From Cephalotus follicularis (Eukaryota > Streptophyta > Magnoliopsida > Oxalidales > Cephalotaceae): a DNA stretch of 64,000 nt. The notes under the pieces were generated by a model. It was not told the origin of the DNA, searched no databases, and saw only the letters and a program-made list of their open reading frames with translations. Position 1 is the stretch's first letter, and every line of letters starts with the position of its first letter. Made by a program: the position numbers and the translations under genes. The stretch is from positions 54,717-118,716 of the forward strand of contig BDDD01001358.1 in assembly GCA_001972305.1 (NCBI GenBank). The letters are read 5' to 3'. Shown one piece after another: positions 583 through 60,318 of this stretch.

Positions 583-695
583 GCACTGGCGCCTGGATTT
601 AGAGCGTTGATGCTTAAGCCGTTGAAACGCGCGCTTAAATTCAAACACATAAGCGCCGACGCCTGCATGTAAATGTTGACGCTTTGCAGCGTGTT
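583..695. repeat. GCGTCGACGC-type palindrome array, degenerate
   Basis: Degenerate units such as GCGTTGATGCTT, AAGCGCCGACGCC and TGTTGACGCTTT lie in the first part of the G1 LTR. The homologous array in the G3 LTR is at 38370-38485. Confidence 0.75.
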
Positions 696-1126
696 CTTCA
701 TACACATAACAGCAGATGGACGTGTCGCAGGGAGGTGATTTGGTGACACTTTTCAAGCATCGTAGCAAGCGCTTTAAGAACGTGGCATGCATGCCCTTAA
801 TGCCAGAATTACCTGCAACAAAAAGGGCATGGGACAGAGGGACAACCTCAGAGTGCATGTGTCACACCCCGTTTTCGGTTCCATACCATAAGACAACATA
901 TATGGTGATTAAGTAGTTCTTGTGAATAATAATTCTTCATTTGAAAATCGTGTTTAAAACCATAAATTTGTGCATATAGCACATAGTTTCATTCGATCAG
1001 TGAAATATCAGTAGTAATGATGTTAAATAACATCAAACAGTATATACTAGGTGGTGGTAGCATATACAATCAATAACAATTCAAATCAGTAACAATTCAA
1101 TCCATGGTATGCAATTTCTGCCCAGA

Positions 1127-1197
1127 CAGTCGACTGCCTTCAAGAACCAGTCGACTATTGGGTTGTGTAGTCGACTGTTTTCAATGCCAGTCGACTG
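1127..1197. repeat. CAGTCGACTG palindrome array, 4 units
   Basis: Units start at 1127, 1148, 1168 and 1188, a spacing of 21, 20 and 20 bp. Two are perfect CAGTCGACTG; the others read CAGTCGACTA and TAGTCGACTG. It is the partner of the array at 9810-9880 in the other G2 LTR. Confidence 0.9.
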
Positions 1198-2387
1198 TTT
1201 TTGCCCAGAATGCAGGCAGAACAATGTAAATGAAATGCAAATTAAATGCCAATCAGTTCAATGCAAGTAGAAATTAACATACATGAAATGCATGAACATA
1301 TCTTCCAAAACATAACACTACCCCTACCTCAATTTGCTATCCCAAGATCAATTGAGTGATCTATCTCTTTAAGCTTCCAAGTCACTTTTACACCAACATT
1401 CTTCAATCCAGCAGGTTCAATCAATGCATGCATGTTTATGGACACATGCATTAGCACAGGGAGTTCAACTAGATTACACAGCTACAATTACCACTTTTAT
1501 AGTAGCTTTTTACCAATCCTTTAAGTCTTAACATCCATTTTACAACTTCCTTTGCATTCTATGTCAACCATTAGTCAATCTCGGATTCAATGATGTTATT
1601 GTTAACAGAAGATGTATGTATATACTTAGGAGAATCTGTAGGCATAACAACTAACAACAACAATTCGAAATGGAATCATTTAAACTCTCTAAGCTTCATA
1701 GCTTCTTTCTTTTACCATTCCAAATCAATTCTCAAGTTGTTAACTTAATCATGTTTGACAGAAAGTATATGCATACTTAAGGAATCAAGAAGCATATATT
1801 AAGTCATAACAGCAACTATAGATTGATTAGAGTTGTTAAGATTCTCTAAGTTGTCCATATTCTTACTTCCATTTACCAATTCAATTCCATAATTCTAGAA
1901 GATGTTAAACATAACCATGTTAACAGAAGATTAACATCCTTATAGTTACCTTATCAACACATATCAGGGGGTTCGGATTTGGAACTTACCAGGAGAAGTC
2001 CAAGCTTCCAAGTTTCTCTTTGAGCTCTAAACCCTCCACATGCAAGCTCCTCCAATCTTCTAGCAATTCTCTTCAAATCAGTGGTTTTTAACACTCAGTT
2101 TCAGCCCCTGGACAGCTGATATAGAGGTTAGGAACCTTTGAATTCGCCAGAGCATTTACTCAGCCTTCGTCCTTCCTTCTCTCTCTCACATGCATTCTTC
2201 TTTCCTTGTCATTTCTCACCTTTCTCTCTTTGATTTTGCAGGTGCCAGGTCTGTGACTTGCAGAGCACATGCAAGCATGTCTTTGCATGTTCTGGCAGCT
2301 TGTGTCGCCTTCCAACACTTGTCCCTTCATGCAAAGCCCCGTCATTCAGCTTACAGGCATGCACAGACACCTGTTCTGTCGAATTTC

Positions 2388-2467
2388 CAGTCGACTGAAT
2401 GCATCTGCCAGTCAACTGTCCTCAACACGCACTAGGCAGTCGGCTGTTCCCCTGTGACAGTCGACCG
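2388..2467. repeat. CAGTCGACTG palindrome array, 4 units
   Basis: Units start at 2388, 2409, 2437 and 2458 (spacing 21, 28, 21). Variants CAGTCAACTG, CAGTCGGCTG and CAGTCGACCG are present; the first looks like CpG decay. It lies about 170-250 bp from the LTR 5' end on the minus strand. Confidence 0.9.
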
Positions 2468-2688
2468 TCCAAGGCTGTTTTAGGGTTTCATGAGTCCGGT
2501 TTTCACCAAACGAACCTCCCATCAATCCAAACAATTATCAATCACAAAATTATGATAATTTGGCAGATAATTCAATTAAAATGTATATTTATTTTAAACA
2601 TGGAAATGAATATACATTAATTGAATTTGCGGTTATTACATTCCACCCTCCTTAAAGAAAATTCGTCCTCGAATTTAGCTCTTACATC

Positions 2689-2815
2689 ACATCTCAAAAA
2701 GGTGGGGAAAAATCTCCCTCATTCTGTCTTCACGTTCCCACGTAGCTTCCTCAGCTCCGTGGAAACACAAAAGCATTTTTACCATAGGAATGGTCTTGTT
2801 CCTCAATACCCTTTC
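2689..2815 (-). pseudogene. pol: G2 pol chromodomain-like tail
   Basis: The minus strand reads VLRNKTIPMVKMLLCFHG, then EEATWERE and a REIFPHLF end, matching the chromodomain-like tail of Tekay-type integrases (compare the G1 gene at 1-389). It lies directly before the purine tract and 3' LTR of G2, its expected place. It is joined almost directly to the integrase N-terminal part by a deletion that removed the catalytic core. Confidence 0.75.
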
Positions 2816-3374: not shown

Positions 3375-3379
3375 GTCAC

Positions 3380-5790: not shown

Positions 5791-7981
5791 TGTTGTCACA
5801 CCCCGTTTTCGGTTCCATAACATAAGACAACATCTATGGTCATATCAGTATTAAACATACATTCCAGCATTTCATTTAACAGAAAAAAAATAACAATATG
5901 CGAAAGCAGTCAATAAGCCAGAATATAAAATTTCAACCATCCGCACGCATCCCATACTACGTGCGGGTACAATTCAACATTATCCTTAACATAAGGAAAA
6001 CAACATAACGAGGTATGATTCGTTCATTACATTACAATACATCAAAAGAAAAACAACAACCTTAAAACGACAAAAGTAGAAGCTCTCCAAGCTTCAGCCA
6101 CAACTCCCAGTCTTCGCTTAATCTGAAACTGTAAAGGGGGGTTAGCCGTTGTCTTCACTTGGCTAAGTAGGAAGATAAAGTATGCTGAGGACTATATGAA
6201 TGCATCATGTATGACAGTTTATATAAAATAATGTTTCAGTGTGCCAATATATAAGCAATCATGCCAAGTGGCCATAAACAATCCATATGCAAGAATACCG
6301 CACAAGGGTACAATCAATTCATACAGTGGTTTCGGTGACGCATATCGCTAACTCCTAGCACAAACTGCGCACCACCTAATTCGTCACCCTACATTGCGGC
6401 TGATAGATCAGGTACGTTGACTACCGGCGTCGGCAGGTAGTTTAACAGTAAGTTCTGCAATTGCAGACAGTGTGGGTGATACTGTCACGCCCCGTTATTT
6501 CATTACCATCTTTGACCAGCATATGTGGTGATATCAGTATTAAACATACATTCCAGCATATCATAATAATAATATATAACAGTATGCGGAAGCAGTCAAT
6601 AAGCCAGAATATATAAAAAAAAATACAAGTCTTCGCACGTATCCCATACTACGTGCGGTTACAAGCCAAAACATCCTTATCATAAGGAATACAACAGTAA
6701 AACGAGGCATGATTCGTTCGTTCATTACAGTACGTAACAACATAAAAAAATAACAACCTTAAAACGGTAAACAGAAGCTTCCAAAGCTTCAGCAGCAAGC
6801 TCCTAATGTCCTTGCTCAATCTGTAATGGTAGGGGTTAGCCGTTGTCCTCACTTGGCTAAGCAGCAAGATAGTGTATGCAAGAGAATATATGAATGCAAT
6901 TATGTATGACAGTTTATATCAAAATATCATTTCAGTGTGCCAATAGATAAGCAATCATGCCAATTGGCCATAAACAGTACATATGCATAGATACCGCTCA
7001 AGGGTACAATCAATTCAATCGTTCAGTGGTTTGGGTGTCACATGTCGCTAACTCCTAGCCCCCAACTGTGCACCACCTAACTATCACCCTACACTCCGAG
7101 AATGATAGAAAAGGTATCAGTTACTACCGGCGTTAGCGGGTAGTTTAACAGTAATTCTGCAATGGCAGACAGTAGGTGATACTCTGGCCAACTCCTGGCA
7201 CCCAGAATCACATCCATAGCCAGTGATAACCTCCATCACCGAACTACGGCAGTAAGCATAGACAATCAATTCAATCAGTACAATCAGTAGTAATATTACA
7301 TATATAATCAATATGCAATATCAAGATGGTTTCTTTAAGAAACATATAACAGTTCAGTAATCATGCATCTCATGTGAGGAAACGATATCAGTACAGTAGT
7401 GGTTTCCGATTTGGAAACAAAACAGTCGGTACCTCTCATGTGGAGGAAAATAGTAGTTCATTTAACAATAAACGTTATTTTGAAAATGATAGTAAATATC
7501 ATAAATCGTGCATGTAGCACTTGGTTGATTCAATAATTAGAATCTAAAACAGTAGGTGAAAACAGTATTTCACAAATCATTAGTTAAGAAATCAGTGGTT
7601 ATCTTAACAATAAGCTTCTTTTGAAAATGATAGTGAATTATCATGATTTTGGGTTCAAGTCCCATAAATGGTTTTGATCTTTGAAATTATCAGTAGAAGT
7701 GGTGTTCATATCACCAAACAGTTGATATATACTAACATAAGTAGCATATACCGTATCTTTAATCAAATCGGCAGTTCTTGCAAATAGTAGTTTGCATTTG
7801 AACGAAGGTTTAAAACCATAATTGTGCATATAGCACATAATTCATTCAATCCGTGAAATATCAGTAGAAATGATGTAAACTAACATCATACAGTATGTGC
7901 ATTATGTTGGTAACATATACAAATCATCAACAATGCAAAACAGTAGCAATTCAGTGATCATTATGCAGTTCCAGCCCAGAA

Positions 7982-8052
7982 CAGTCGGCTGCCTTCAAGA
8001 ACCAGCCGGCTGTTGGGTTTAGCAGTCGACTGCAATACATGGCAGTCGACTG
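7982..8052. repeat. CAGTCGACTG palindrome array, 4 units
   Basis: Units start at 7982, 8003, 8023 and 8043 (21, 20, 20), the same spacing as in the G2 LTRs. The second unit is CAGCCGGCTG, a perfect palindrome with both halves changed. Confidence 0.9.
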
Positions 8053-9076
8053 TTCTTGCCCAGAAATGCAGGCATAACAGTTTTGTGTAATGCAATTTCA
8101 GTGCTAAATCATTCCAATGCAAAGAGAAAATTAACATACACATATGCATGATCATATCTTCCAATACATAACACTACCCCTACCTCAAAACGCTATCCCA
8201 AGATCAATTACAATGATCTTTCTCTTTAAAGCTTCCAAGCCTTTTTTTCCAACCAATCCTTTAATCTCAGCAATTCAGTCTAGGCATGCATGTTATAACA
8301 TATGCATCAGTTCAGTTTGTTCAGTAACATTTATAATTATTCAAATCAGTAGCTTAATCCATTAGTTCATTAAGCTTTATATCCCTCCATTTTACTACTT
8401 CTTATGCATGTTCAACTATTTTAATTCCTAATCTCTGAGTGGATAGCAGGTGTACATGCATACTATGAAGGAAAACAGTAGTCTATTATGGAACTATCAA
8501 CAACCTTCTAATCCAATTAGAGGTTACCTACTCATTTACTTGAGTTGAGTGCTACATTCCATATAAATCCACCGTCTTAAGATGTTAACTCATCAATCTT
8601 ACTGTAGGTTAAACAATTTCCTAACCCCATTATCAGTTTACAACAACACAGAAGTTAGAATTCGAACTTACCAGGAAGATTCAAGATCCCAAGTTCCCAC
8701 TTTGAGCTTCAAGCTCCAACTCTCCAATGCAAGCTTTCAATCAATCCAGCAACAAACCTTTCTTCTTTTAGTGTTTAACAACACTCACAATCAGTCCATT
8801 CACAGATGATATAGGCTCATCAATCTAGAATTTCGTTAGAGTCATTTACTTCAGAAATTTCTCATTCTCTCACTCACATGCATCTCTTCGTCTTGTCATT
8901 TCTCTTATCTTACCTTCTTGATTCTTGTAATTGCAGGGTCTGGAATCTTGCAGGGGTGCAGAGGACATGCAAGGCATCACTTTGCATGTCATGGCTGCTT
9001 AGGACACTTGTCCCATTAATTTCCACGCCTCAAGTTCAGTTTGACACCTGCACAGACCCATGTTCTGTCGAAATTA

Positions 9077-9156
9077 CAGTCGACTGGATTCATGGGGCAG
9101 TCGACTGGACATTACACGAGTCAGGCAGTCGACTGATACCCTGTGTCAGTCGGCTG
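9077..9156. repeat. CAGTCGACTG palindrome array, 4 units
   Basis: Units start at 9077, 9098, 9126 and 9147 (21, 28, 21). Three are perfect and the last is CAGTCGGCTG. The spacing pattern equals that at 2388-2467 and 11071-11150. Confidence 0.9.
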
Positions 9157-9809
9157 TCAAGAGGGAAATTAGGGTTTCTTAGGTTCGGTTTTCATCAAAC
9201 GAACCGCCATTCATTCCAAGTAAAATTACCAATCATAAATTGAAATAATTGGACATTAAATTCAAATAAGTGCACATTTTATTAATCGTTATTACAATGT
9301 ACACGAATTGAATTTGCGGTTCTTACAGATACTCGGGCCAACTCCTGGCACACAGGACCACCATCCGTAGCTAGTGATATCCTCCATCACTAAACTCCGG
9401 CAGTAACATAGACAAACAATTCAATCAGTACAATCAATAACAATATTACATATATAATTAATATGCAATATCAAGTGTTTTCTTTAGAAACATATAACAT
9501 TTCAGTAATCGTACATCTCATGTGAGGAAACTATATCAGTACAGCAGTGGTTTCCAAATCGGAAGCAAACAGTAGGTACCTCATGTGTAGGAGGCAAATA
9601 AGTAGTTCTTGTGAATTCTTCATTTGAAAATGGTGTTTAAAACCATAAAATTGTGCATATAGCACATAGTTTCATTCGATCAGTGAAATATCAGTAGTAA
9701 TGATGTTAAATAACATCAAACAGTATATACTAGGTGGTGGTAGCATATACAATCAATAACAATTCAAATCAGTAACAATTCAATCCATGGTATGCAATTT
9801 CTGCCCAGA

Positions 9810-9880
9810 CAGTCGACTGCCTTCAAGAACCAGTCGACTGTTGGGTTGTGTAGTCGACTGTTTTCAATGCCAGTCGACTG
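9810..9880. repeat. CAGTCGACTG palindrome array, 4 units
   Basis: Units start at 9810, 9831, 9851 and 9871 (21, 20, 20). Three are perfect; the third is TAGTCGACTG, as in the other G2 LTR. Confidence 0.9.
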
Positions 9881-11070
9881 TTTTTGCCCAGAATGCAGGC
9901 AGAACAATGTAAATGAAATGCAAATTAAATGCCAATCAGTTCAATACAAGTAGAAATTAACATACATGAAATACATGAACATAACTACCAAAACATAACA
10001 CTACCCCTACCTCAATTTGCTATCCCAAGATCAATTGAGTGATCTATCTCTTTAAGCTTCCAAGTCACTTTTACACCAACAATCTTCAATCCAGCAGGTT
10101 CAATCAATGCATGCATGTTTATGGACACATGCATTAGCACAGGGAGTTCAAATAGATTACACAGCTACAATTACCACTTTTATAGTAGCTTTTTACCAAT
10201 CCTTTAAGTCTTAACATCCATTTTACAACTTCCTTTGCATACTATGTCAACCATTAGTCAATCTCGGATTCAATGATGTTATTGTTGACAGAAGATGTAT
10301 GTATATACTTAGGAGAATCTGTAGGCATAACAACTAACAACAACAATTCGAAATGGAATCATTTAAACTCTCTAAGCTTCATAGCTTCTTTCTTTTACCA
10401 TTCCAAATCAATTCTCAAGTTGTTAACTTAATCATGTTTGACAGAAAGTATATGCATACTTAAGGAATCAAGAAGCATATATTAAGTCATAACAGCAACT
10501 ATAGATCGATTAGAGTTGTTAAGATTCTCTAAGTTGTCCATATTCTTACTTCCATTTACCAATTCAATTCCATAATTCTAGAAGATGTTAAACATAACCA
10601 TGTTAACAGAAGATTAACATCCTTATAGTTACCTTATCAACACATATCAGGGGGTTCAGATTTGGAACTTACCAGGAGAAGTCCAAGCTTCCAAGTTCCT
10701 CTTTGAGCTCTAAACCCTCCACATGCAAGCTCCTCCAATCTTCTAGCAATTCTCTTCAAATCAGTGGTTTTTAACACTCAGTTTCAGCCCCTGGACAACT
10801 GATATAGAGGTTAGGAACCTTTGAATACGCCAGAGCATTTACTCAGCCTTCCTCCTTCCTTCTCCCTCTCACATGCATTCTTCTTTCCTTGTCATTTCTC
10901 ACCTTTCTCTCTTTGATTTTGCAGGTGACAGGTCTGTGACTTGCAGAGCACATGCAAGCATGTCTTTGCATGTTCTGGCAGCTTGTGTCGCCTCCCAACA
11001 CTTGTCCCTTCATGCAAAGCCCCGTCATTCAGCTTACAGGCATGCACAGACACCTGTTCTGTCGAATTTC

Positions 11071-11150
11071 CAGTCGACTGGATGCATCTGCCAGTCGACT
11101 GTCCTCAACACGCACTAGGCAGTCGGCTGTTCCCCTGTGATAGTCGACTG
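11071..11150. repeat. CAGTCGACTG palindrome array, 4 units
   Basis: Units start at 11071, 11092, 11120 and 11141 (21, 28, 21). In the LTR's own orientation it lies about 175-250 bp from the LTR start, that is upstream of the putative TATA box. Confidence 0.9.
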
Positions 11151-11933
11151 TCCAAGGCTGTTTTAGGGTTTCATGAGTCCGGTTTTCACCAAACGAACCT
11201 CCCATCAATCCAAACAATTATCAATCACAAAATTATGATAATTGGAAAGATAATTCAATTAAAATGTATATTTATTTTAAACATGGAAATTAATATACAT
11301 TAATTGAATTTGCGGTTATTACAGCATGGTCTGTGAAAGGGGAGGTTTGGGCACCTGTCGCACCAGGCTGCTAGTTTGAGAGAGGAAAAGAAGTTTGGAG
11401 AACATGCAGAGAAGACACAAAGAAATCTGCATAAAAAGTCGACAGCTCTCACCCTTCTCATCTGTTACAGAAAGCTAGAGGGCCAGTGACACTGTGAGTG
11501 ACAAAAGAGAGCAGGAGAACTTTAGAGAGGAAGCTCAACCACCATTGTTGAGCAAAGGGAGCTGGGAGCTTGCACACCAACTGCTGGGACGAACTAGGGA
11601 GCTTTCAAGCCGTACCTGGGGACTCAAAGTGACTAATTGGATACTAAAAGAGATGGACTTTCAGCTTCTAACTTGAGGCCAGAGGTAGGCGAAGCCATAT
11701 CTATATTTTTTGGATCCACTAATTGATGTTTGTTCAGTGATGTTTTGCATAGATTGCATGGCTTGTTGGACTATTTTTGAGTTAATGAAATGTTGCTATG
11801 CTATGCTGGATGTATGATGTGATATTGCATGCCAGTTTTCTGGGCTTTATACATGTTGGAATGCATGTTATGGGCATGGAAATGTCACTGTTTGCCCATG
11901 TTGTGAGGAAGATGACGACCCCTGCTTGAAACC

Positions 11934-12120
11934 GTCGACGCCTTGGATAAGCGTCGACGCTTAATACTGTGAACTGCGTTTTATATGTTGAAATGCGTTA
12001 AAACTTCAACGTCTAAGGGAGGAGATATCGACGCCCAGACACTGAAAGCGTTGACGCTATGAAACTGAACGTCGACGCTTAAGGGACATAAGTGTCGACA
12101 CCTAAGGAATAAACGCCGAC
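11934..12120. repeat. GCGTCGACGC palindrome array in the G1 LTR
   Basis: GTCGAC-type cores start at 11934, 11953, 12026 (ATCGAC), 12049 (GTTGAC), 12070, 12093 and 12114 (GCCGAC). Neighbouring cores are 19-23 bp apart. The array lies downstream of the putative TATA box, so it would be in the transcript leader. Confidence 0.85.
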
Positions 12121-13423
12121 GCTTTAGAGTCCTGTTTGGACAGTTTTTACGGTTTTGATACCCGACGATCCCGATTTCTCTTAGGATGCATTAGAGCATT
12201 TGTATGCATTGCATATACACTGTTTACTGCTTGTTTGGTTACTGCTTATAAATCGTTTATGATTTCTAAAGTTGCGATGTTTAGAACTGCACATGCGAAC
12301 TCGGAATGTGCTATTTTGAATATGAAAATATGTATTGGTTAATAACGTATTTTCGAACGAACTGGTAAACGATTTACACCACTGTTTTGTTCAAGGTATT
12401 TCTACTACTGAAATTACATGTTTCAAATATTTATTACTTTCAGAAATATTTGAAAATGAACTGCCTGTTATCGATATAAACGATCACCACTGTGCCGTTT
12501 ACTGTTTAATTCACTGTTTGCTCTGTGAATTTCAATGTGGTTGTGTTTGAACCATTGGTTGCATGGCGGAGGCTGCCAGCGTCGGCTAGTGGTAGGGTTG
12601 ACCTAGGGGCCAGGAGTTGGCTGGGTGACTCACTGTACTGTACTGTTGCCTTGCTTGGTTGCTTGGAGCAGGGACCGAAGTGGGAGAGTAGCGTGGGGCC
12701 AAGAGTTGGCGGCGTTACATATACTGCCTGACTGTTGTGGTCCTTTATGGACATATTGTACTGCCTGTTGGTCCTTTTCAGACATTACTGTGATTGTGGA
12801 TGTGATCATGGCCGGATCACTACTGTACTGTTCTTGCATACATATGTTTTCTTATATATGTACCCACTGTCATCCTTACTGTACTGCTTAAATATATATG
12901 TTTTTCGTATATATATATAAACTGGTATTTCCTACACTGCATCATTTATGCATACATTACATGACATGCATTTATTGTTGTTCCTGAGCTACTTTTATGA
13001 CTTAGCCAAGTGAGGACAAAGGCTAACCCCCTACTTTATAGATTGATGCAGTGGACCGGTTGGACTGGCATGAGCGAAGAACAAGATGTTATGTTGTTTT
13101 TTTCCTAGTTTTACTTTTCTCATGTTTTGTAATAAACCGAGTTTTATTTAAGGACTAATGTACTGTACTATGGTTTGTTTAATGATGGGATTTAATATTG
13201 TACTGTGATCACGCTCCGTTTGAGGGCTATTAACAACGACGAACTTGTATTGGGTAGCGTGCAGTATGGGATGCACATTACATGTTTTTCAACTTATGAA
13301 TCTTATGCTTCCGCAATTGATGTATTGTTTATGAGTTTAAATTTTATGGTATTTGCATAAGCTGAATTTATATGTAAATTGCCTTACCGCCTTAATGTTG
13401 TCTTACCAAAACGGGGTGTGACA

Positions 13424-14204
13424 TTTCCCTTCTCTTATGAGACATAAACTTATCTCGCATTTGCAAAAGCTGGGCCGGCCACTGTAATGTCACGGACCGG
13501 TTCTAGATTTTTTTTCCATCCAAGAAATTCCATAAATAAACGGTTTAGCCCCTTTCTATACTCACTTCATTCATTCAGCACTGAATGTTATAGAGAGAGA
13601 CGATGAAAGAGTGAGAGAGTGTGAGAAATATTGAATTGGAGCAAAGAAGGGGTCGCTGGACTCATAGCAGTGTGTAGATCTCAAAGGAGGAATCAGATGT
13701 CGATTGTGGCAGCTAATTAATCAGTATTGCAAGTGGTTTTAACAGCAAGTTCTCTTAGATCTATAACTCGACATCTATCAAGGTAGGCTTTACTTATATG
13801 CTTGAACTATTGTGTATTTCTACCTTGAATGACGAATGCCATTATGATCTGATGAGTTGTGCTGCTGTGAACTGCTAGATCGGGATTTGATGAATGGATT
13901 AAGAATTTCTTTAAGTTGATCCTGTTATAATCGACCACTGGGGCTTATGGCTCCCTTGGATCGAGTGTTAGATTGCCTGGTTTGGACTTGAGCCGCTGAT
14001 GAGATGATAACAACCATATGTTGTTGTTTTGCTAAGTCTGAAAAGCGTTGGTGCTTTGCTTAAGAAATTATAGTTGGTGTCTAAAGCTCAGAATGCTAAG
14101 TAAGAACTCGGACAGCTGAAGGGAGACCTCGTACAAGAGGTATACCTCGTACAAGAAGGCAGACCTCGTACCAGAAGGCAGACCTCGTACTAGAGGAATA
14201 CCTT
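13424..14204. other. Unassigned DNA ending in an 18-19-bp minisatellite
   Basis: No gene is seen. It contains a promoter-like stretch (CCATAAATAAACGG near 13530, then a GA-rich leader) that may be part of an old LTR. From 14126 to 14204 an 18-19-bp tandem repeat of the form ACCTCGTACNAGAAGGCAG starts at 14126, 14144, 14163, 14182 and 14200. Confidence 0.6.
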
Positions 14205-16131
14205 TGTAACGTCCCCGACCCGAGCCTGCTAATAGCTCAAAACGGACCTCGAGGATCGGTTGCGTTACGTTGGGTGTGAATCGTTACACTCTTTAGCATT
14301 GTTGTCTCATGCTAACATACATCATCTACTCATGCTTTTCTCCATAGACAAATCACATGATCAAATTCATACTATTAAACATCTTCCATAACCATAAATT
14401 TAAACCTTAAACATAATCATCTTATATAAAGATGTCATAACCATATTGTTGTTATACATTTACAAAGGATCATCATTTATCATAACATATAATACAGCGG
14501 AAAATATTATCTGATTACATATCAAATCATTTATGCAAACATCATTGCATAGTACATATCCTCTGCAAAGTTTCTTCTAAAGAGCTCCCTTTAAGCTCGT
14601 AATCTCCATTCAATCATTTCCTGAAAACATTTTATCTGAAAACAAACATTGAAAGTAATGAGCTCATAATAGCTCAGTAAGGTGTTTTTATTGTAAACAC
14701 ATTTCATCGTAACCTTTTTTTTGTCAATACATATAACTAGAACATTTCATAAAACATATCACTTTTCTAATTACAAATTTGTAACTAGAACATTTCATAA
14801 ACATAGAAGTCATAAGAACCTTAATGAACCCTTTTACATCGCTTCACCGGGGCATTGTACACTCCCCGACTACTATCCTTACATCACATGCATGTCCGTG
14901 AGCATCTCGCTCCATTAACATTGAGCACTCGCTCCATTCCCCTTGGATCGCAATCCAAGGGTGGTTCATTCATCATTTCATCAAACATTTTTTCAATACT
15001 TTGAGTGATCAGCTCAAAGCATTCATAAAAATCATTTCATAACATTGCTTTAACAATTCATAAACCTTTCTCTTCATTTGAGTAATTAACTCAAATGTAT
15101 TCATAAAACAATTTTGCATAGCTTTGCTAAAACTGATAATTCATATAGAAATAATAATTTTCAGAGAAAACTTATAACGTAAACATTAAAGTAGACATCT
15201 TCACGAATTCAGAAAGCTCAAGATCATAAAAATTGGTTGAGGATTGAATCCGTTATGAATTTTTAAATTGGGTGGTTCCCTGTTATATCAGTATAGGAGT
15301 AGTAAAATGACACAGGGATTTTCATCAAGAATTCGATAGAATTTCAAATTGTACAAAGCATAGAAGTTAAAGTAGACATATAAGGTTTTCAAAACATCAA
15401 GCCATTTCAATTCATCAAGAAATGAGCAAGATATTAATAGAACAATTTGTTATAAAACTGGGAGTAAAACAGGGGATACTTTGGAGAAAATGGGTATAGA
15501 ATTTCCTTACTTTGCTATAGAATTCCTTTCTTTCTTCTCTAGCTAAATTCTCCTCTTCAATCTCAGTAACCAATACTCTCTTCTCAGCTGAACTACACTT
15601 ATAAATAGGCTGAATTGGTTGGCTTGGAGAGTAAGCTTCTCTCTCTCTTGTGAGTCATCTCTCCAAAATAGCCCATGTGCCTAAATTCAATCCAATCCAA
15701 TGGTGACACTTATTATAACATCTGATAATATCTCAAATTCTTCTCTCCTGGCCTACCACATGTCAATAATTAATAAAAATTATCCCACAAAAGGACAAAA
15801 GTCAGATTTGGGCAACTAGCCTGCAGAACAAAGCGTCAGCGCTTTTATCCAAGCGTCGCCGCTTACGGGTCTCGTACAAGTCAACTGACACACTTGACTT
15901 CAAAGCATCGACGTTTACATTTAGAGAATCGTTGGTTGCCTCCAAAGTGCTGACGCTTTCTCGTAAGCGTCGCCGGTGTAAGGGGTTGTCCAGTTTTCTG
16001 TTGCACTGGTTTAAAGCTCCGTTAGAAGGGGTCCAAGCGTCGCCGGTTTACCACCAAAGCATCAACTCTTTACCACCAAAGCAATCATCTTTCCATAATT
16101 AATATCTTTAATGGAAATTCGGGTCATTACA
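14205..16131 (-). mobile_element. S3: gypsy solo LTR of the G6 family
   Basis: It starts TGTAACGTCCCC and ends GGTCATTACA, and is flanked by ACCTT (14200-14204 and 16132-16136). It is the reverse complement of the G6 LTR family: both have the segment giving CACCGGGGCATTG and ACTCCCCGA, and its right end mirrors TGTAAGGACCC. A TATA-like box (minus strand TATTTATAAG) lies near 15600, and a degenerate GCGTCGACGC array at 15833-16075 lies upstream of it. The insertion landed inside one unit of the minisatellite. Confidence 0.92.
15833..16075. repeat. GCGTCGACGC-type palindrome array, degenerate
   Basis: Units include AAGCGTCAGCGCTT at about 15831, AAGCGTCGCCGCTT at about 15851, AAGCATCGACGTTT, AAGTGCTGACGCTTT, AAGCGTCGCCGG (twice) and AAGCATCAACTC. 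Pairs are about 20-21 bp apart. Confidence 0.8.
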
Positions 16132-17470
16132 ACCTTGTACTAGATGGCAGACCTCCTACTTGAGGCAGACGTACTAGAAGGCAAACCTTGGAGGTAGATG
16201 TCAGGTGCAAAGCTCGCCGTCTGACATCGGGACTTAGGAAAGTTCTAAGACTGTGTAGCCTAGGTGAACCACCTCTAATACACCTCAGTGAGCCCTTCTC
16301 TAACCAAAAGGGTTTATAGCTAAAGACCTATGAGGTCTCAGACTTTGCCCGACATTGTTGAGCCTTGACGAGATAGCCACTACCGTTATCTTCTATGTCA
16401 TGGGGGATCAGGGTGGTAGTCGCTTAGTCTGCCAGATTGAGAGCAATGGAACTCTCTTAAGAGAGATTTATAATCATGGAGAAAAGAGCTGAAGGAACCG
16501 CAGGAACCACTTTAGGGAAACCTAAGGGTAGACACCTCATTGTGAATGACCGTGAGGACCCCGCATGACTTTGAAAAACCCTGTCTAGCATTACTTGAAG
16601 AACCGCAAGAATCACTTTGGGGTGACCCTAAGGGTAAAACCTCTTTGTGAAGGACCGCGAGAACCTTGTATGCTTAGATTAACCATGTCTAGCATTACTG
16701 GAGGAACCACAAGAACCACTTTGGGGTGAGCCCAAGGGCAGACACCGCATTGTGAAGGACCTCGTATGACTAGATCAACCCAGACTACTCCAGTATGCTT
16801 TATCCTAAGGAGACGAGCATTAAGGAGAGGAGTGATCAGACCAGCACTATCTCAACTATATTCTCTACAGTACAAGCAGTGCACAGATTAGAGCGATGCT
16901 ACCTTGGGTAGAGGAGGTTGAGGAGCACTTACTGCTCTCCCTATGTCACCTTGAGTGCGTAGAAGGATGGAAGTCCTCTACCAGTAGAGTGTAGACTGGC
17001 AGAGTAGAGTGCAGACCGGTAGAGTAGTGCATAGAAGGATGAAAGTCCTCTACCTATAATTATCTTGTGGATATATGTATTCCTAGACGATTATGGATTG
17101 GGCTATGAAACGCCTGTAGGCTTATGGTGTATAAATGATGATCTTTTGATATGGGTAATTACTAAAACAGGCATTCATGCATATCCTGCCATGCACACAT
17201 CTACTATAATTGTACACTTCATTATATATGGTATCGCCTACACAACCATTAGTTGCTGACTCATTCTCTGAATGGGTTTGGTACAGTTGACCCATCGAAG
17301 TAACCAAATGGGCCAGATTGTAGAGCAATGATTCTAGTAGCAGTGCAGCTCCTCTACCTACCTTATTGTATAAGAGACTTAGTGTATAAGAATAATAGTG
17401 CATCTAATATGAGATGTTGATGTATACATTTTTGTTTATCCACATGAGTTAATTAATTGGTTATTTTCTA
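16132..17470. repeat. Unassigned DNA with tandem repeats of about 105 bp and 18 bp
   Basis: The minisatellite resumes at 16132 after S3. At 16491-16790 there are three tandem copies of a unit of about 104-106 bp, starting at 16491, 16597 and 16701, each beginning GGAACC(G/A)C-like and containing CACTTTGGGGTGA and GTCTAGCATTACT. At about 16970-17050 short repeats of GTAGAGTG(T/C)AGAC(T/C)GG occur. I recognise no gene or element. Confidence 0.6.
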
Positions 17471-17485: not shown

Positions 17486-17820
17486 GGGGGGGGGGGGGGG
17501 GGGGGGGGCNNNNNNNNNNNNNNNNNNNNNNNNNNNNNNNNNNNNNNNNNNNNNNNNNNNNNNNNNNNNNNNNNNNNNNNNNNNNNNNNNNNNNNNNNNN
17601 NNNNNNNNNNNNNNNNNNNNNNNNNNNNNNNNNNNNNNNNNNNNNNNNNNNNNNNNNNNNNNNNNNNNNNNNNNNNNNNNNNNNNNNNNNNNNNNNNNNN
17701 NNNNNNNNNNNNNNNNNNNNNNNNNNNNNNNNNNNNNNNNNNNNNNNNNNNNNNNNNNNNNNNNNNNNNNNNNNNNNNNNNNNNNNNNNNNNNNNNNNNN
17801 NNNNNNNNNNNNNNNNNNNN
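17486..17820. other. Homopolymer G run and 311-base N gap
   Basis: Bases 17486-17508 are all G and 17510-17820 are N. The matching LTR in C2 has CATCCCCCCTCCCCTTGTAG on its plus strand, so a genuine G-rich tract exists here, but its length is not reliable. Confidence 0.95.
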
Positions 17821-18192
17821 CTCTTGGGTTCACTCCCCAATTTCTCTTAGGGTTCACTCCCCTATTACAATCAAAATTGATAGAAGATGTGTTTCGATCT
17901 AAACCTCTCACAAGGTTGGATTTTACAAGATAAGTTTGCTGAATGTAATTGAATACAAAGATAGGCTAAGATATGAAAATGAAAACTCTTGAGATAAGCT
18001 TTTAATTTGAATGCTTGTTGTGTATTTCTTTTGAATGATGTTTGTGCTTGTGTTTCTCTAATTGTTTTTCTTCAAAACATTCGTGTATATATATCTCCTT
18101 GCCTCATAGATCCGTTGGGAATGTATTGGGATTTGTTCCATCATGGAATGTCCACTAAAACTCTGTCAGAAATGTTTCCAGCCGTCCAAAGC

Positions 18193-18552
18193 TTCGACTG
18201 TCACGCTCAAATCGTCGACGCTTATGTGACCGTTAGGGATCTCAAATTCAAATTGTCGAGTCAAAGCGCATACGTTCTGTCTTCAAAAGTCGACCGGCAG
18301 CTCAAAGCGCTGACGCTTAAGGTTGGGCGTCAACGCTTAGGCCAAATTGAATTCCAATTGGGCTCACTGGTTTAGTCGACGTACGCTTTGCACAAAGAGC
18401 AGACGCTTTGTGTTAAAGTGCCGACGCTTGAATCTTGGGCATCGACGGTTTGAGGTCTTGTTCCTCTTTTCAAAGTGCTTCACCGGTAGACGCTTTGTTC
18501 CTTGTCTCGACTGCCTCTCAAAGCGCTGACGCTTTATCTTTGAGCATCAACG
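18193..18552. repeat. GCGTCGACGC palindrome array in the C1 3' LTR
   Basis: Cores include TTCGAC 18193, GTCGAC 18213, 18289 and 18375, GCTGAC 18309, GTCAAC 18329, ATCGAC 18441, and further degenerate units to about 18552. Pairs are about 20 bp apart (18193/18213, 18289/18309/18329). It lies in U3, upstream of the TATA box. Confidence 0.85.
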
Positions 18553-18680
18553 GTTTGCCCTGTATCTGCAGAATTCTTGTGCTGTTTTGTGCATTCCATG
18601 GGTTTTCTTGCACATCAAGAAACTTTGTTAAACACAAATATGTTATCATCAAAACTAGGATTGAGACATAAATGTCAACA

Positions 18681-20390: not shown

Positions 20391-20433
20391 GCCTTTGCAG
20401 ACGGCGCTTTCTGCCTTAAAGCGCGATTAAAGC

Positions 20434-27587: not shown

Positions 27588-27713
27588 TGTTGACATTTAT
27601 GTCTCAATCCTAGTTTTGATGATAACATATTTTTATTTTAACAAAGTTTCTTTATGTGCAAGAAAAGAAAGAATGTTGCAAAAAAAACCAGAAAATTGGA
27701 ATTACAGGTTAAA

Positions 27714-28075: not shown

Positions 28076-28176
28076 CTTTGCGCACTAGAGACAATTTCTG
28101 GTGGATTTTTAATGCGCTGTCTTTGAAGCAACTAGCCCCAAGACACTACCAACGGATCTTTCAAGTCAAAAATAGC

Positions 28177-33587: not shown

Positions 33588-33702
33588 TTAATATGTTTAT
33601 GTGCTTGTATGTTTTTTGCTTGATATGCTTATTTGTTCATTTATGCATCATTTGCACTCATTCATGCGCGAATTCGTAAAATCAGCAGAAAAACAGAGAA
33701 AA

Positions 33703-33880
33703 GCGCCGACGCGCAGAATCTAAGCGTCAGCGCTTAACACTGCACCTAGAATTAGAACTTTGCAAAACATGCAAAGCACCGACGCCAAGAATTCAAGCGT
33801 TAGCGCTTTAACACTAAAATTGGGGCTCGAAATTTAAAATTGCACATAGCGACGCCGCTTTAAGAAAAAGTGTCGACGCT
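33703..33880. repeat. GCGTCGACGC palindrome array upstream of the C2 envelope-like ORF
   Basis: Cores GCCGAC 33705, GTCAGC 33726, ACCGAC 33778, GTTAGC 33799, AGCGAC 33848 and GTCGAC 33872. They form pairs 21-24 bp apart, with pair-to-pair distances of 73 and 70 bp, matching the C1 spacer. The array lies in the pol to third-ORF spacer, not in an LTR. Confidence 0.9.
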
Positions 33881-33890
33881 TTAGTCAGAC

Positions 33891-38369: not shown

Positions 38370-38485
38370 TAAAGCGACGATGCCTTAAGTAAAAGCGTCG
38401 ACGCCTAAGTAATTGAAACGCGCGTTTACTTCAAACACATAAGCGTCGATGCCTGCATGTAACCGTTGATGCTTTGCGTCGTGAT
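38370..38485. repeat. GCGTCGACGC-type palindrome array
   Basis: Units such as AAAGCGACGATGCC, AAAGCGTCGACGCC, AAGCGTCGATGCC and CGTTGATGCTTT. Homologous to 583-695 in G1. Confidence 0.8.
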
Positions 38486-39248
38486 TCTTGTACGCACAAA
38501 TAGCAGATGGACGTGTGGCATGGAGGTGAGTTTGTGCCACTTAACCGGCACTTGGATAGGCTCTCTGGAGATGTGGCATGCATGCTTTTGATGCCAGACT
38601 TACCTGTAACAAAAAGGGCATTGAGCAGATAGTGAATCTCTGAATGCATGGACTGAGAAAATGGGGGGAAGGACACCTGCTGCACCAGGTTTGCATGGGT
38701 AAGAGAGCAAATACCATGGAGGGTGCATGCAGGGGCAAAACTAAATAATGCCTACGTAAAAACTGTTAGCCTCATCTCTATTCTCTGCTGCCAAAAAGAA
38801 AGGGAAAACAAAAGAGAGAGCCTGAGAATAAGAGAGACACACTGAGAGAAAGCTCAAACCACCATTGTTGAGCAAGTGGAAACTTGGAGATTGACAGCAA
38901 CAGTTGGAATGAACCAAGGAGTCTCAAGCAGTACTTGGGGACTCAAAGTGACCTGTTGGATGCTAAAACAGGTGGACTTTCAGCTTCTAACTTAAGGCCA
39001 GAGGTAGGGGAAGCCATACTTGTATTTTGTGTTCTATAATTGGTGTCTGTTTAGTGATGTTTATGCATGGATTTCATGGCCAGTTAAACTATTTTTGATC
39101 ACTGAAATGATTCTATGTTATGTTGGATATGTAAAATGATGTTGCATGTCAGTTTTCTGGGCTTTATACATGTTGGATTGCATACTAATGTTTTGGAAAT
39201 GTCACTGTTTGGTCATGTCGTGAGGAACAAGACGACTGCTGCTTGAAA

Positions 39249-39445
39249 CCGTCGACGCCTTTGGGTAAGCGTCGACGCTTAGTACTGTGAACTACGTTTT
39301 ATATGTTGAATGCGTTTTAAACATCGACGTCTGTGGGAGGAGACATCGATGCCCAGGTGCTGAAAGCACTGACGCTATGGGACTGAACGTCGACGCTAAA
39401 AGGGCATAAGGGTCGACGTCCAAGGAATAAACGTCGACGCTTTAG
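39249..39445. repeat. GCGTCGACGC palindrome array
   Basis: Contains ACCGTCGACGCC, AAGCGTCGACGCTT, ACATCGATGCCC, AACGTCGACGCT, GGTCGACGTCC and AACGTCGACGCTTT. Homologous to 11934-12120 in G1 and located downstream of the promoter region. Confidence 0.88.
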
Positions 39446-48433: not shown

Positions 48434-48546
48434 CAGTCGGCTGCCTCCCTGTGGCAGTCGGCTGTTTATCCTAGCAGTCGACTGTTTTCCTTAGCAGTCG
48501 ACTATCTAGGTTGAGTAGTCGGATGTTCCTTATGAACAGTCGACTG
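48434..48546. repeat. CAGTCGACTG palindrome array, 6 units
   Basis: Units start at 48434, 48455, 48475, 48495, 48516 and 48537 (21, 20, 20, 21, 21). Variants CAGTCGGCTG, CAGTCGACTA and TAGTCGGATG occur. Confidence 0.9.
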
Positions 48547-49627: not shown

Positions 49628-49707
49628 CAGTCGACTGTTTTTATCTTGCAGTCGACTGTCCCTTTTTAATGGGCTAACAGTCGACTGTTCCCTGCGACAG
49701 TTGACTG
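49628..49707. repeat. CAGTCGACTG palindrome array, 4 units
   Basis: Units start at 49628, 49649, 49678 and 49698 (21, 29, 20); the last is CAGTTGACTG. The spacing is close to the 21-28-21 pattern of G2 and S2. Confidence 0.9.
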
Positions 49708-50808: not shown

Positions 50809-50922
50809 CAGCCGACTGTCTCCCCTTGATAGTCGGCTGTTTTCTTTCAACAGTCAGCTGTCCCATTTTTGGCAGTCGGCTACCCCCATAACAGTCGGCT
50901 GTCTCCTCATGACAGTCGGCTG
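50809..50922. repeat. CAGTCGACTG palindrome array, 6 units
   Basis: Units start at 50809, 50830, 50851, 50873, 50892 and 50913 (21, 21, 22, 19, 21). Most are CAGTCGGCTG-type variants. Confidence 0.88.
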
Positions 50923-51005
50923 CTTCATAAACAGTACGCATCTTCTACATCACTACTCACCCCAGCTTCGCCACCTCAGCGAATCCGGGTAAGGGGACAC
51001 GTGGA

Positions 51006-51229
51006 CAGTCGACTATAATCCCAAACAGTCGGTTGTGCCATCTACAGTCGACTGCCCTTACTCGACAGTCGACTACACAACCAGCAGGAGGTGACCTCCA
51101 TTAAATCGCATGAACAGTCGACTGGCTCCTTAGCACAGTCGGTTGTTTCCCTCGAGTAGTCGGTTGTTCGCACTGAATAGTCGACTGGTATCCTCAAACA
51201 GTTGACTATCCTCCTGAGACAGTCGGCTG
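51006..51229. repeat. CAGTCGACTG palindrome array, 10 units
   Basis: Units start at 51006, 51026, 51045, 51066, 51115, 51136, 51157, 51178, 51199 and 51220. Steps are 19-21 bp except one of 49, consistent with lost units. Confidence 0.9.
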
Positions 51230-51778
51230 CTCCTACGAGCAGTGCACAAAAACAACATAAAATACATGCAATTCTCAGCCCAATCCAAACACAATAGAGC
51301 ATTCATCAACAATAACACATTTCATGCTCATATCACAGTGTATTGGATGCATTTCATCTACGAACATCCATTATAACTAAACTCAAACCACAATTATAAA
51401 ATCCCCTACCTTTGAATTCCAAGTTAGGAATTGCAATCCACCTCTTTATGTCCCGGATCCGAGGCGTTAAAAGGTCCCTGGTCCGTGTAACAACTCCACC
51501 AAGCTCGATTCATCCACTGGTTCGAGCATCCAAGCCCCTGGTTCACGTATAGAGCATTTGGGGTTCACTTCTCTCTCTCTTTTCTTTCATTTTTCCTTCA
51601 CAATCTCTCTATCTCTTTTCTCTCTTTCAAATGTTGATGAAAAGAGGAGAAGAGGGTGTGTTTTTATGGAGAAAACTCGTCTCCCTTTCTCTCTCCTCAC
51701 CTTCCCACATATCATCTCAATCACCTCTCCCACTGCCATGACAGGTCTGGCGCGCACGTTATGCTCTTTGACCCATGG

Positions 51779-51903
51779 CAGTCGACTGTTTTCCTTGGCA
51801 GTCGGCTTTCTCTGCCGACAGTTCCAGTAGGTTGTTTCCCTCAGTAGTCGGCTGGTTCCACGTTAGGGGGTCCAGTCGACTGTCTCTCTCTGACAGTCGG
51901 CTG
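51779..51903. repeat. CAGTCGACTG palindrome array, 5 units
   Basis: Units start at 51779, 51799, 51845, 51873 and 51894 (20, 46, 28, 21). The 28-21 end of the pattern recurs in G2 and S2. Confidence 0.85.
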
Positions 51904-55934: not shown

Positions 55935-56118
55935 TAGTCGACTGGTGTCATTGGACAGTCGACTGGATCACAGACAGTCGACTGGACCAGGACACCAGTC
56001 GACTGGAATCTGCAGAAATAGAAATTGGCAGATTCAACTTGAAAGACGCCGATGTCTTATGAAAGGGGTCGACTTCTTTTGTAACAACAGTCGACTGGAC
56101 CAGGACACCAGTCGACTG
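55935..56118. repeat. CAGTCGACTG palindrome array upstream of the C3 envelope-like ORF
   Basis: Units start at 55935, 55956, 55975, 55996, 56088 and 56109, in pairs 21 bp apart, nearly all followed by G (CAGTCGACTGG). They take the same place as the GCGTCGACGC arrays in C1 and C2, but with the other motif flavour. Confidence 0.9.
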
Positions 56119-58137: not shown

Positions 58138-58158
58138 TTAAGAATAATGAGATAACCC

Positions 58159-58170
58159 GCTCTGATACCA
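58159..58170 (-). promoter_or_regulatory. C3 primer-binding site
   Basis: The reverse complement is TGGTATCAGAGC (tRNA-Met site), two bases from the 5' LTR. Confidence 0.92.
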
Positions 58171-58552
58171 ACTGAAAATTAAATGTATGGCAACCTTTAA
58201 CTACTAACTTTGTATGCGGAAAATACAATTTAAGCAATGAACATAAACAATCACACAATAACAAATAAATAAGGAGTTAAGGGATAGAGAGTGCAAACAA
58301 ATTTATAGATCATTCCTTCTTCCAAAATCTAACCTTTTAAATTTTGGAAAGCATCATTTAAGTCAAAATTTATGCCATTCTCATTAACTCAATAATAATA
58401 TTTCAATAAAATTGAAATATTACATCGTGCAAAAATCTCTGGCGTTACAAGTCTCTCCTTGATAAACCTGACTTTCTCGGAAGTCTCCTCCACCAGATCC
58501 GACCCAAGCAACTGTAAGGACCCAAATTTCCATGTAAGATATTAATTACATG

Positions 58553-59910
58553 AGAGCTTCAACTTGGGAGCCGACAACGTATTGAGATTCGATACGAGAT
58601 TATGTGTTCCAGCTCAGGTAGAATTGAAAGAGGAACTAATGACGGAAGCACATAGTTCAAATTTCTCTATACACCCTGGAAGTACAAAGATGTATAGAGA
58701 TTTGCGAGATCTCTATTGGTGGAATAATATGAAAAGAGAAATAGCGGACTTTGTGTCAAGGTGTCTTGTTTGTCAACAAGTGAAAGCTGAGCATCAGCTG
58801 CCGAAAGGAACCTTACAGTCGCTTCCCATACCAGAATGGAAGTGGGAGCATATTATTATGGACTTCGTGACAGGACTGCCGAGGACCACAAAAGGGAATA
58901 ATGCAATATGGGTGATTGTGGATCATTTAACGAAATCTGCTTATTTTCTACCAATCAAAGACAGCCATTCATTGAGTCAACTAGCAAATATTTATGAACA
59001 AGAGATTATCAGATTACATGTTGTACCAGTATCGATCATTTCGGATCGAGACCCCCGTTTCACGTCACGCTTTTGGAAGAGTTTACAGAATGCTTTGGGT
59101 ACAAGGTTGAATTTCAGTACGGCAAATCATCCGCAAACAGACGGACAATCAGAACGGACTATACAGACTTTGGAAGACATGTTACGTGCTTGTGTTATAG
59201 ATTTCCAAGGGAATTGGGAACAACATGTTACTCTAATTGAGTTTGCTTACAACAACTGTTTCCAAGCAAGCATACAGATGGCACCTTTTGAGGCTCTCTA
59301 TGGACGAAGATGTCGAACACCTATCTGTTGGGAAGAGGTAGGAGAACAGAAGTTATTGGGACCAGAAATGGTACAAGTAACTACCGAAAAAGTAAAACTA
59401 ATTCGGAAACGCCTTTTAACGGCCCAAAGTAGACAGAAGAGCTATGCGGACAAGAGACGAAGAGAGCTACAGTCTGAAGTGGGAGATCACGTTTTTCTTA
59501 AAGTATCACAATGGAAGGGAGTGATGCGGTTTGGCAAGAAGGGAAAGCTTAGTCCCCGATACATTGGACCATATGAGATTTTGGAAAAGATAGGAGAAGT
59601 TGCGTATAGGCTTGCCTTGCCACCAAATCTATCTCATGTACACAACGTATTCCATGTATCGCTACTACGGAAATATATGGCCAACCCATCTCATGTTCTA
59701 AGAGTTGAGCCTATTCAAGTGCATGAAGATTTGTCATACAACGAACAACCAGTGGAGATCCTGGATTACAAAGAACAAGTTCTGCGAACCAAGACGGTTC
59801 CGTTAGTAAAAGTTTTATGGAAAAAACCATGAAGTCGAAGAAGCCACATGGGAATTGGAAAACACCATGAGAAAAGAGTACCCTCATCTTTTTAAGTCTA
59901 ATGTATAACA
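58553..59910 (+). pseudogene. pol: G6 integrase with chromodomain-like tail
   Basis: Open from 58564 to 59832. It contains the linker VLRFDTRLCVPAQVE, the zinc domain (HSSNFSIHPGSTKMYRDL ... CLVCQQVKAEHQ), IIMDFVTGLPR (first Asp), ISDRDPRFTSRFW (second Asp) and [18 protein letters not shown] (Glu). Then come the C-terminal GKLSPRYIGPYEILEKIGEV and a tail with VPLVKVLW. All three catalytic residues and the zinc residues are present. One extra A in a 7-A run near 59820 shifts the frame just before the end of the tail (EEATWELE). The 5' part of pol is missing, so no start of its own is apparent. Confidence 0.9.
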
Positions 59911-60057
59911 AATTTTGAGGACAAAATTTTTGTAAGGAGGGTAGATTGTAAGGACCCAAATTTCCATGTAAGATATTAATTATGGAAAATGATTGCTATT
60001 GTGTTTTGGCAGATATTTCAGGGGACCCGTAGTATGACCCTACGCTCGGGGAGTACG

Positions 60058-60318
60058 GTCGACGCTTAAAACCCTTCTATCTGCGTTTTAAACCAGTGCA
60101 AACAGTCGATGCTTAGGGCTAAAGAGTCGACGCTTTGGGTAACGGTCGACGCTTTAAATGTAAAGGTCGACGCTTTAGGGTCAGGTAGGTCTGTTGACGT
60201 TGACGTTGACGTTGACGTTGACGAAGACTTGAAAGCGGCGACGCTTTGTAATAAAGCGTCAGCGCTTTAGTCGGGATACCCTTAACCGCCGACGCTTAGA
60301 GAGAAACCGTCAACGCTT
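60058..60318. repeat. GCGTCGACGC palindrome array abutting the G6 TATA box
   Basis: GTCGAC-type cores at 60058, 60105, 60126, 60145, 60166, about 60237, 60258, 60287 and 60309, with many steps of 19-21 bp. Between them a (GTTGAC)5 hexamer run lies at 60193-60222. Confidence 0.9.

Follow-up and report, generated by a model that had tools for sequence, protein, structure and literature searches.

GTCGAC-centred palindrome arrays in copia and gypsy retrotransposons of a 64-kb stretch of the Cephalotus follicularis genome

Why would retrotransposons of two superfamilies carry the same short palindromes, in regularly spaced arrays, when nothing else in their long terminal repeats (LTRs) is detectably alike? 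The question is raised by a 64-kb stretch of the genome of Cephalotus follicularis, a eudicot of the order Oxalidales (contig BDDD01001358.1 of assembly GCA_001972305.1, positions 54,717 to 118,716), here called the window, within which all counts given below were made. LTR retrotransposons make up most of it. They include Ty1/copia elements (C1 to C3) and Ty3/gypsy elements represented by ten LTR copies, which were recognized as similar stretches in a self-comparison (Ga, Gb in two copies, Gb3, Gc, Gd, Ge, Gf, Gg, and Gx). Arrays of palindromes centred on GTCGAC occur in both. These arrays are ordinary in kind and new in reach: they are boxes of the type known from Sireviruses, in two local flavours, and they are present in both superfamilies.

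Two palindromes in regularly spaced arrays

The hexamer GTCGAC occurs 71 times, against 4.9 occurrences expected from dinucleotide frequencies and a maximum of 10 in 30 Markov shuffles, and none of the other six-base palindromes, 64 in all, exceeds its expectation as strongly (14-fold, with the runner-up at 3.7-fold). Two larger palindromes have it at their centre: A, CAGTCGACTG (10 bp), and B, AAGCGTCGACGCTT (14 bp), which confirms the two GTCGAC-core flavours proposed in a preliminary description of this DNA. Palindrome A was found 27 times exactly and 23 times with one mismatch, 50 units in all (means in shuffles, 0 and 1.1). Palindrome B was found 4 times exactly, 11 times with one mismatch, and 28 times with two, together 43 units (mean in shuffles, 0 for each class), and a further 27 times with three mismatches (mean in shuffles, 1.0). 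The earlier mention of single-base variants therefore falls short for B, which has few exact copies. A relaxed, orientation-aware scan placed 66 A units and 96 B units in oriented arrays, not all of them certain, and found 8 more in the solo LTR Gx. Among 118 curated units (second LTR copies and Gx omitted), three, at 20525, 25246, and 27992, are hybrids of an A half and a B half, suggesting that half-sites are the elementary, modular piece from which units are built.

All but one of the 120 stringent units lie in 23 arrays spanning positions 581 to 60318, so that the arrays reported previously are real, their number and starting point (about 24, from position 583) being slightly revised. After the units of three second LTRs were dropped, 77 distances of up to 110 bp separated the centres of adjacent stringent units; 45 were of 18 to 24 bp and 40 of exactly 20 to 21 bp. 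With relaxed units from 15 arrays, one per homologous set, the short steps range from 19 to 23 bp, 57 of 68 being 20 to 21 bp, and there are 24 larger gaps of 26 to 93 bp. The prevailing spacing of 19 to 23 bp described before is thus upheld, and the step of 20 to 21 bp is common to the 10-bp A units and the 14-bp B units. Pairing of units is frequent, as in an array of C2 in which the steps are 21, 52, 21, 52, and 21 bp.

By location, 104 of the stringent units fall in LTRs (22,248 bp as drawn), 15 in the stretches preceding an env-like open reading frame (ORF; 1,082 bp), and one in neither, the last being a unit at 14043 with three mismatches, about as many such units as chance would yield. 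Since the borders were drawn after the arrays had been seen, some of them only approximately, and since the window is mostly retrotransposon, these figures are a description and not a test of enrichment. Where the start of the LTR can be placed, the first array sits roughly 60 to 500 bp inside it. A second array lies farther into the LTR in 6 of the 10 gypsy copies (both Gb copies, Gb3, Gd, Ge, and Gf); Ga and Gc are truncated. The arrays had been assigned to the LTRs of gypsy and copia elements, which is correct as to the two superfamilies, but three arrays precede env-like ORFs instead. In all three copia elements with an ORF of the PF20167 type, such an array stands between the gag-pol part and that ORF: a B array at 20430 to 20538 in C1 (minus strand), which includes the hybrid unit at 20525, the B array of three pairs just mentioned at 33701 to 33881 in C2 (plus strand), and an A array of six clear units at 55935 to 56118 in the truncated C3 (minus strand).

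Sharing between superfamilies and the Sirevirus precedent

When the units were masked, which removed 12 to 39% of each region, the five copia regions gave no blastn match to nine gypsy LTRs on either strand at an E value of ≤0.05, upholding across superfamilies the earlier statement that the LTRs share no other sequence. Under the same masking, gypsy LTRs resemble one another (E ≤ 1e-3) in the pairs Ga-Gd, Gc-Gd, Gb-Gb3, and Gg-Gx, with two short links from Gf, to Gc and to Ge, and the copia regions of C1 and C2 match each other, with C3 matching neither. From these comparisons we judge that probably five gypsy and two copia LTR families are represented. Flavour A occurs in Gb/Gb3, Ge, Gf, and copia C3 and flavour B in Ga/Gc/Gd, Gg/Gx, and copia C1/C2; the flavour tracks the LTR family, not the superfamily. 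In a collection of viral contigs, from which near records may be omitted, neither an A-A pair with 6 to 16 bp between its units nor a confirmed relative of two pol pieces was found.

The preliminary description held that no LTR module like this had been described. That claim fails, because the arrays of C1, C2, and C3 fit boxes published for Sireviruses in 2010. In its account of these motifs, the study of Bousios et al. (PMC2829016) describes palindromic “RM boxes” of 10 to 20 bp in 13 Sireviruses (Ty1/copia). Most occupy the upper half of the LTR and precede a TATA box, and of 79 copies in the linker 77 lie upstream of ENV; they are CpG rich, and the CpG island extends to about 45 bp past an RM unit, the TATA box following it at an average distance of 37 bp. 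That account identifies no single binding factor and takes the boxes as support for an internal ENV promoter. The copia arrays here resemble them in being dyad palindromes in many clustered copies upstream of TATA and ENV and in being CpG rich. For RM boxes, at least eight palindromic copies per element are expected; C2 has 13 relaxed units in its 5' LTR and 6 before env. The clusters precede an LTR TATA-like box in C1 and C2, and further copies precede the env-like ORF in C1, C2, and C3. C2 also has the copia gag and reverse transcriptase followed by an env-like gene, and the multiple polypurine tracts, that characterize Sireviruses: several G-rich tracts lie upstream of its 3' LTR (37223, 37324, 37343, and the terminal one at 37442). 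A polyC stretch, CCCCCCTCCCC, stands shortly before a sequence like a primer-binding site (PBS), TGGTATCAGAGC, at 28746.

Among the box sequences given in the 2010 paper, that of Vitis, CGGTCGACCG, has the same GTCGAC core, and Osr10 and Osr8 have GTC-N-GAC. The outer bases differ, being CAG/CTG or AAGCG/CGCTT here, and the CGG-CCG signature of RM boxes is absent from the A and B consensus sequences, as it also is from Tnd-1 (PMC2829016). The cluster starts about 125 bp into the LTR in C1 and C2, compared with 200 to 400 bp for the published boxes, and in our case two flavours with a measured step of 20 to 21 bp coexist in one genome. The greatest difference is in distribution. RM boxes were called Sirevirus specific on the basis of a comparison with other Ty1/copia elements (PMC2829016), whereas here the boxes are also found in the Ty3/gypsy LTRs Ga, Gb, Gb3, Gc, Gd, Ge, Gf, Gg, and Gx. 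No report of palindromic boxes in gypsy LTRs was found among the matches listed in a search of open-licence literature. A motif published as Sirevirus specific, with its factor unnamed, thus occurs within one genome in gypsy LTRs as well, in the form of the same two boxes and with no other detectable likeness to the copia regions.

Other known systems are less close. The maize Sirevirus cis-regions are likewise palindrome clusters in the LTR, and they are described as having strong predicted folding and as small-RNA hot spots, but their palindrome, CACCGGAC-N3-GTCCGGTG, is not A or B (PMC10760457, PMC5311732). According to the sections of the 2023 maize study that treat these regions, the same palindrome outnumbers all other motifs in structured regions of Helitrons, and the cis-regions of various transposable element (TE) families frequently consist of repeat arrays, with repeats that can be palindromic (PMC10760457); these are precedents for one palindrome across TE classes of one host. 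Those sections report no obvious structured peak in Ty3/RLG elements (PMC10760457). For the Del (Tekay) group of Ty3/gypsy, a survey of 2,432 elements by Cruz et al. in 2014 described LTR CpG islands, and the CpG-rich, more variable 5' part of the chromovirus LTR is comparable to what we see; as far as its text goes, the word palindrome is absent and the eudicot Del elements lack a CpG island (PMC4029996).

Constraint on the units and competing explanations

The units change at different relative rates before and after insertion. In near-identical LTR pairs (Gb, C1, and C2), each assigned to a single insertion on the basis of identity, 30 of 304 unit sites differ compared with 91 of 3,122 sites elsewhere, so that the units, which carry CpG, change 3.4 times faster than the rest. 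In diverged gypsy copies (Gb/Gb3 twice, Gc/Gd, and Ga/Gd), 31 of 220 unit sites differ compared with 776 of 3,180 elsewhere, or 0.58 times as fast (Fisher P = 8e-13 for the contrast, on the four counts of differences). The units are more divergent than their surroundings in all three LTR pairs (P = 0.042, 0.015, and 0.059) and less divergent in all nine comparisons of diverged copies, with a mask-shift P value of <0.05 in six; among the four that were pooled, Gb/Gb3 in U3 (P = 0.002) and Gc/Gd (P = 0.024) are singly significant. The other five, Gb3/Ge and C1/C2 comparisons, were not pooled, since much of the sequence around their units aligns poorly (0.33 to 0.50 differing); they agree in direction, four of them at P < 0.05, but the aligner may merely have paired similar units. 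Slow change between diverged copies together with fast change within LTR pairs means that the units are kept during replication and that this protection is lost after insertion. The replicating lineage thus constrains the units, which decay quickly once inserted.

We consider it probable that the units are upstream boxes for host DNA-binding proteins, of the Sirevirus RM box type, used by both superfamilies. Since the same two palindromes recur with no other detectable common sequence, both superfamilies would use the same two host binding specificities. Each palindrome would be a dyad site for such a protein, and the step of 20 to 21 bp would correspond to two helical turns, allowing proteins stacked on one face of the DNA to act jointly on a downstream TATA box; the cassette before the env-like gene of the copia elements would serve an internal promoter of that gene. 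The leading candidate family for the GYCGAC core would be AP2/ERF proteins of the DREB/CBF type, for which RCCGAC and RYCGAC are core sites. RYCGAC is present on the sense strand of 78 of the 118 curated units, and RCCGAC occurs 22 times on the sense strand and twice on the antisense strand of these units (24 and 5 times over 14 LTR/linker regions), an asymmetry that may read as a directional DNA core. Of the roles offered in the preliminary description, a host factor, RNA stems, and RNA dimerization, the first is the best. The comparison of RM boxes with the PLACE database yielded mainly stress-related sites (PMC2829016), and DREB1D sites are reported as associated with plant LTRs in the corresponding part of another study (PMC11656987). 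TATA-like boxes follow the last unit at 95 to 98 bp in the four LTRs of C1 and C2, at 10 bp in Gg, and at 110 bp in Gf. We infer a protein ligand, activation, and the factor family, as well as convergence rather than transfer of a very short module.

A number of observations weigh against this explanation. TATA scores like those of C1 and C2 (7.4 to 8.7) are reached in 7 to 10% of random 120-bp stretches of the window, so what counts as TATA evidence is the recurrence of the position in C1 and C2 and not the score; this chance control lowered our confidence very slightly. Strong TATA-like matches are also present after distal arrays, in Gf (9.9) and Gc (8.0), the LTRs of Gd and Ga contain no good match, Gb, Gb3, and Ge have only a TATATC or TATACC motif about 265 bp away, and the three arrays before env-like ORFs are followed by weak matches only (3.3 to 4.6). 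The distal second arrays of 6 of the 10 gypsy copies, perhaps in the transcribed leader, are not explained by an upstream box. Among the larger independent gaps, phasing at 10.5 bp is weak (R = 0.42, P = 0.016), and the gaps are not centred on whole turns (P = 0.24). As to the candidate family, RYCGAC matches no more than 31 of the 63 B units, Gf alone supplies 11 of the 24 RCCGAC occurrences on the sense strand (13 and 3 remain without it), homologous arrays are not independent in these strand counts, and the site of ERF069, another member of the ERF family, is mostly absent from LTRs (PMC11656987). Finally, two of the four pooled gypsy comparisons are not significant singly (Gb/Gb3 distal, P = 0.25; Ga/Gd, P = 0.39), the C1/C2 array before the env-like ORF shows no sign of constraint (P = 0.47), and the LTR pairs and the diverged copies come partly from different families. 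A stronger helical phasing (R = 0.49 at 10.5 bp, from 89 distances of >25 bp taken over all pairs) was set aside since those distances are not independent.

A broader version of the host-factor explanation is possible, although we put it forward tentatively and would not expect it to hold with even odds: the box belongs to the host, in that one or two host factors per plant genome set its sequence and LTR families of both superfamilies converge on that promoter code. There would be two such codes here, A and B, read by about seven LTR families. If this is true, RM boxes read out the part of the host transcription factor repertoire on which retrotransposons, gypsy elements included, depend. With the same boxes present in gypsy LTRs, a peculiarity of one kind of element becomes a test of whether host factors are used convergently, and the finding bears on how different kinds of plant retrotransposons may be switched on together. 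It also provides a precise bait for finding the factor, namely, sites of 10 and 14 bp at a 21-bp step.

Capture of the array by one superfamily from the other, by template switching or nested insertion and followed by drift that left only the palindromes, is unlikely, even though both flavours are present in both superfamilies and the hybrids (3 of 118 curated units) would fit it. The masked copia-gypsy comparison, in which flanks and spacers were included, gave no match at E ≤ 0.05 on either strand, although masking took out 12 to 39% of each region; two flavours would require at least two transfers; and retention of the units alone would still imply selection on the units.

A function in the RNA, with units pairing in the transcript as stems or serving as a signal for dimerization, packaging, or cyclization, seems quite unlikely. 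The arrays are more stable than dinucleotide shuffles in 21 of 22 cases, 18 of them by at least 2 standard deviations (z down to −10.2; Gx excluded), the distal gypsy arrays may fall in the RNA leader, and the maize Sirevirus palindromes are described as structured small-RNA hot spots (PMC10760457). But stable folding is inevitable for any array of palindromes, and an RNA function offers no evident reason for the constant step of 20 to 21 bp. Selection for RNA pairing should lead sense-strand variants to favour G.U over C.A pairs. The opposite is seen, the imperfect sense-strand dyad pairs being C.A in 96 cases, G.U in 45, and other in 48 (of 716), which argues against upkeep of RNA pairing. 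In addition, the antisense strand folds more stably in 17 of 22 arrays, to which spacer base composition may contribute. Stems and dimerization, both suggested earlier, are accordingly disfavoured.

It is distinctly improbable that the clusters act through chromatin, that is, that CpG-rich sequence keeps the promoter unmethylated or positions nucleosomes with no activator bound. The median CpG observed/expected ratio is 1.14 in the arrays (21 arrays with 45-bp flanks, both arrays of the right Gb copy being omitted) versus 0.55 in the rest of the window, and CpG islands are reported at RM clusters in the account cited above (PMC2829016). Arrays of flavour A, however, reach ratios of only 0.46 to 0.88 and yet are equally regular, CpG content alone requires neither a palindrome of 10 to 14 bp nor a 21-bp step, and units that change faster than their surroundings between LTR pairs behave as methylated CpG would. 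Neutral tandem duplication, in which a repeat of about 21 bp was amplified and the seeming conservation of its palindromic core is due to chance, is highly improbable and largely refuted: Tandem Repeats Finder (TRF) reports some arrays as repeats of period 19 to 21 and C3 has a duplicated pair, but spacers vary within and between arrays, the same two palindromes recur in otherwise dissimilar LTR families, and the units are slow between diverged gypsy copies though fast between LTR pairs.

Individual arrays and their elements

Of the copia elements, C1 (minus strand, about 17.8 to 25.7 kb) has a copia-type reverse transcriptase followed by an env-like ORF whose match to PF20167 is below the cut-off (40.8 versus 45 bits). 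C2 (plus strand, 27.6 to 38.3 kb) has a recognized copia gag (28802 to 29692; E = 1e-28), the copia-type reverse transcriptase (RVT_2, 32287 to 33000; E = 4e-57), and, directly downstream of the array at 33701 to 33881, an env-like ORF at 34029 to 34991 on the plus strand (PF20167, 34029 to 34988; E = 4e-20). This ORF has 129 protein relatives, of which the 120 listed are all named Cephalotus follicularis; the top two among those listed have 83% and 87% identity over 94% and 83% of the query, respectively. C3 (54.7 to 58.1 kb) is a truncated relative that keeps gag and the env-like ORF.

In the Sirevirus-like C1, the B array of the 5' LTR spans 25246 to 25612, with TATATATA at 25143 to 25150, and that of the 3' LTR spans 18189 to 18555 (both minus strand). 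In C2, likewise Sirevirus-like, the corresponding B arrays on the plus strand lie at 27712 to 28078 in the 5' LTR (TATAAA at 28177) and at 37580 to 37946 in the 3' LTR (TATAAA at 38045). The 3' LTR of C2 (37456 to 38298) lacks about 310 bp of the full LTR length where it meets the gypsy LTR Gd, and one or the other must have been cut short at this junction. An assembly gap, a run of 311 N at 17510 to 17820 that follows a long G run, lies at the end of the 3' LTR of C1.

The gypsy elements contain Ty3-type reverse transcriptase, gag, and integrase pieces on both strands. Their profile matches, in pieces, exceed the cut-off for RVT_1, Retrotrans_gag, and Integrase_H2C2 and fall below it for rve (30.5 and 22.5 versus 32.6 bits) and Chromo (20.2 versus 25.1). 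Their Ty3/gypsy nature is clear, and they may belong to the Tekay/Del group.

Flavour A arrays of the gypsy LTRs are all on the minus strand. In the left Gb copy, array 1 lies in U3 at 2388 to 2467 (TATA-like sequence at 2116 to 2123) and array 2 in the distal half at 1127 to 1197; in Gb3, the respective positions are 9077 to 9156 (U3) and 7982 to 8052, and in the right Gb copy, 11071 to 11150 (U3) and 9810 to 9880, each of these six arrays having four units. The left Gb copy is about 98% like the right one, and the internal region between them holds another LTR, 79% similar; Gb3 and the right Gb LTR stand directly head to tail at 9328/9329 (7178 to 11324). Ge has array 1 in U3 at 49628 to 49707 and array 2 at 48434 to 48546. 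Gf has array 1 in U3 at 51779 to 51903, with a TATA-like sequence at 51661 to 51668, and array 2, of 16 relaxed units, at 50809 to 51229.

Among the B arrays of gypsy LTRs, that of Ga lies in U3 at 581 to 684 (plus strand; LTR start near 385, truncated near 859). The array of Gc at 11930 to 12124 (plus strand; LTR end at 13423) aligns with the distal array of Gd, which is at 39247 to 39442, the first Gd array being at 38372 to 38474 (both plus strand); the LTR of Gd ends at 40740 and is followed by PBS-like sequence. The array of Gx lies at 15831 to 16070 (minus strand) in the U3 of a solo LTR on the same strand (14207 to 16131) that has ACCTT on either side and was classed as gypsy because of its similarity to Gg, its first 58 bp being 88% like the start of the Gg LTR. 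Tandem repeats of 19 and 105 bp flank this solo LTR at 14118 to 14194 and 16489 to 16761. The last array, in the U3 of Gg, spans 60054 to 60318 on the plus strand, with TATAAATA at 60329 to 60336, and includes at 60193 to 60223 about five GTTGAC hexamers in perfect, uninterrupted succession, each one base away from GTCGAC.

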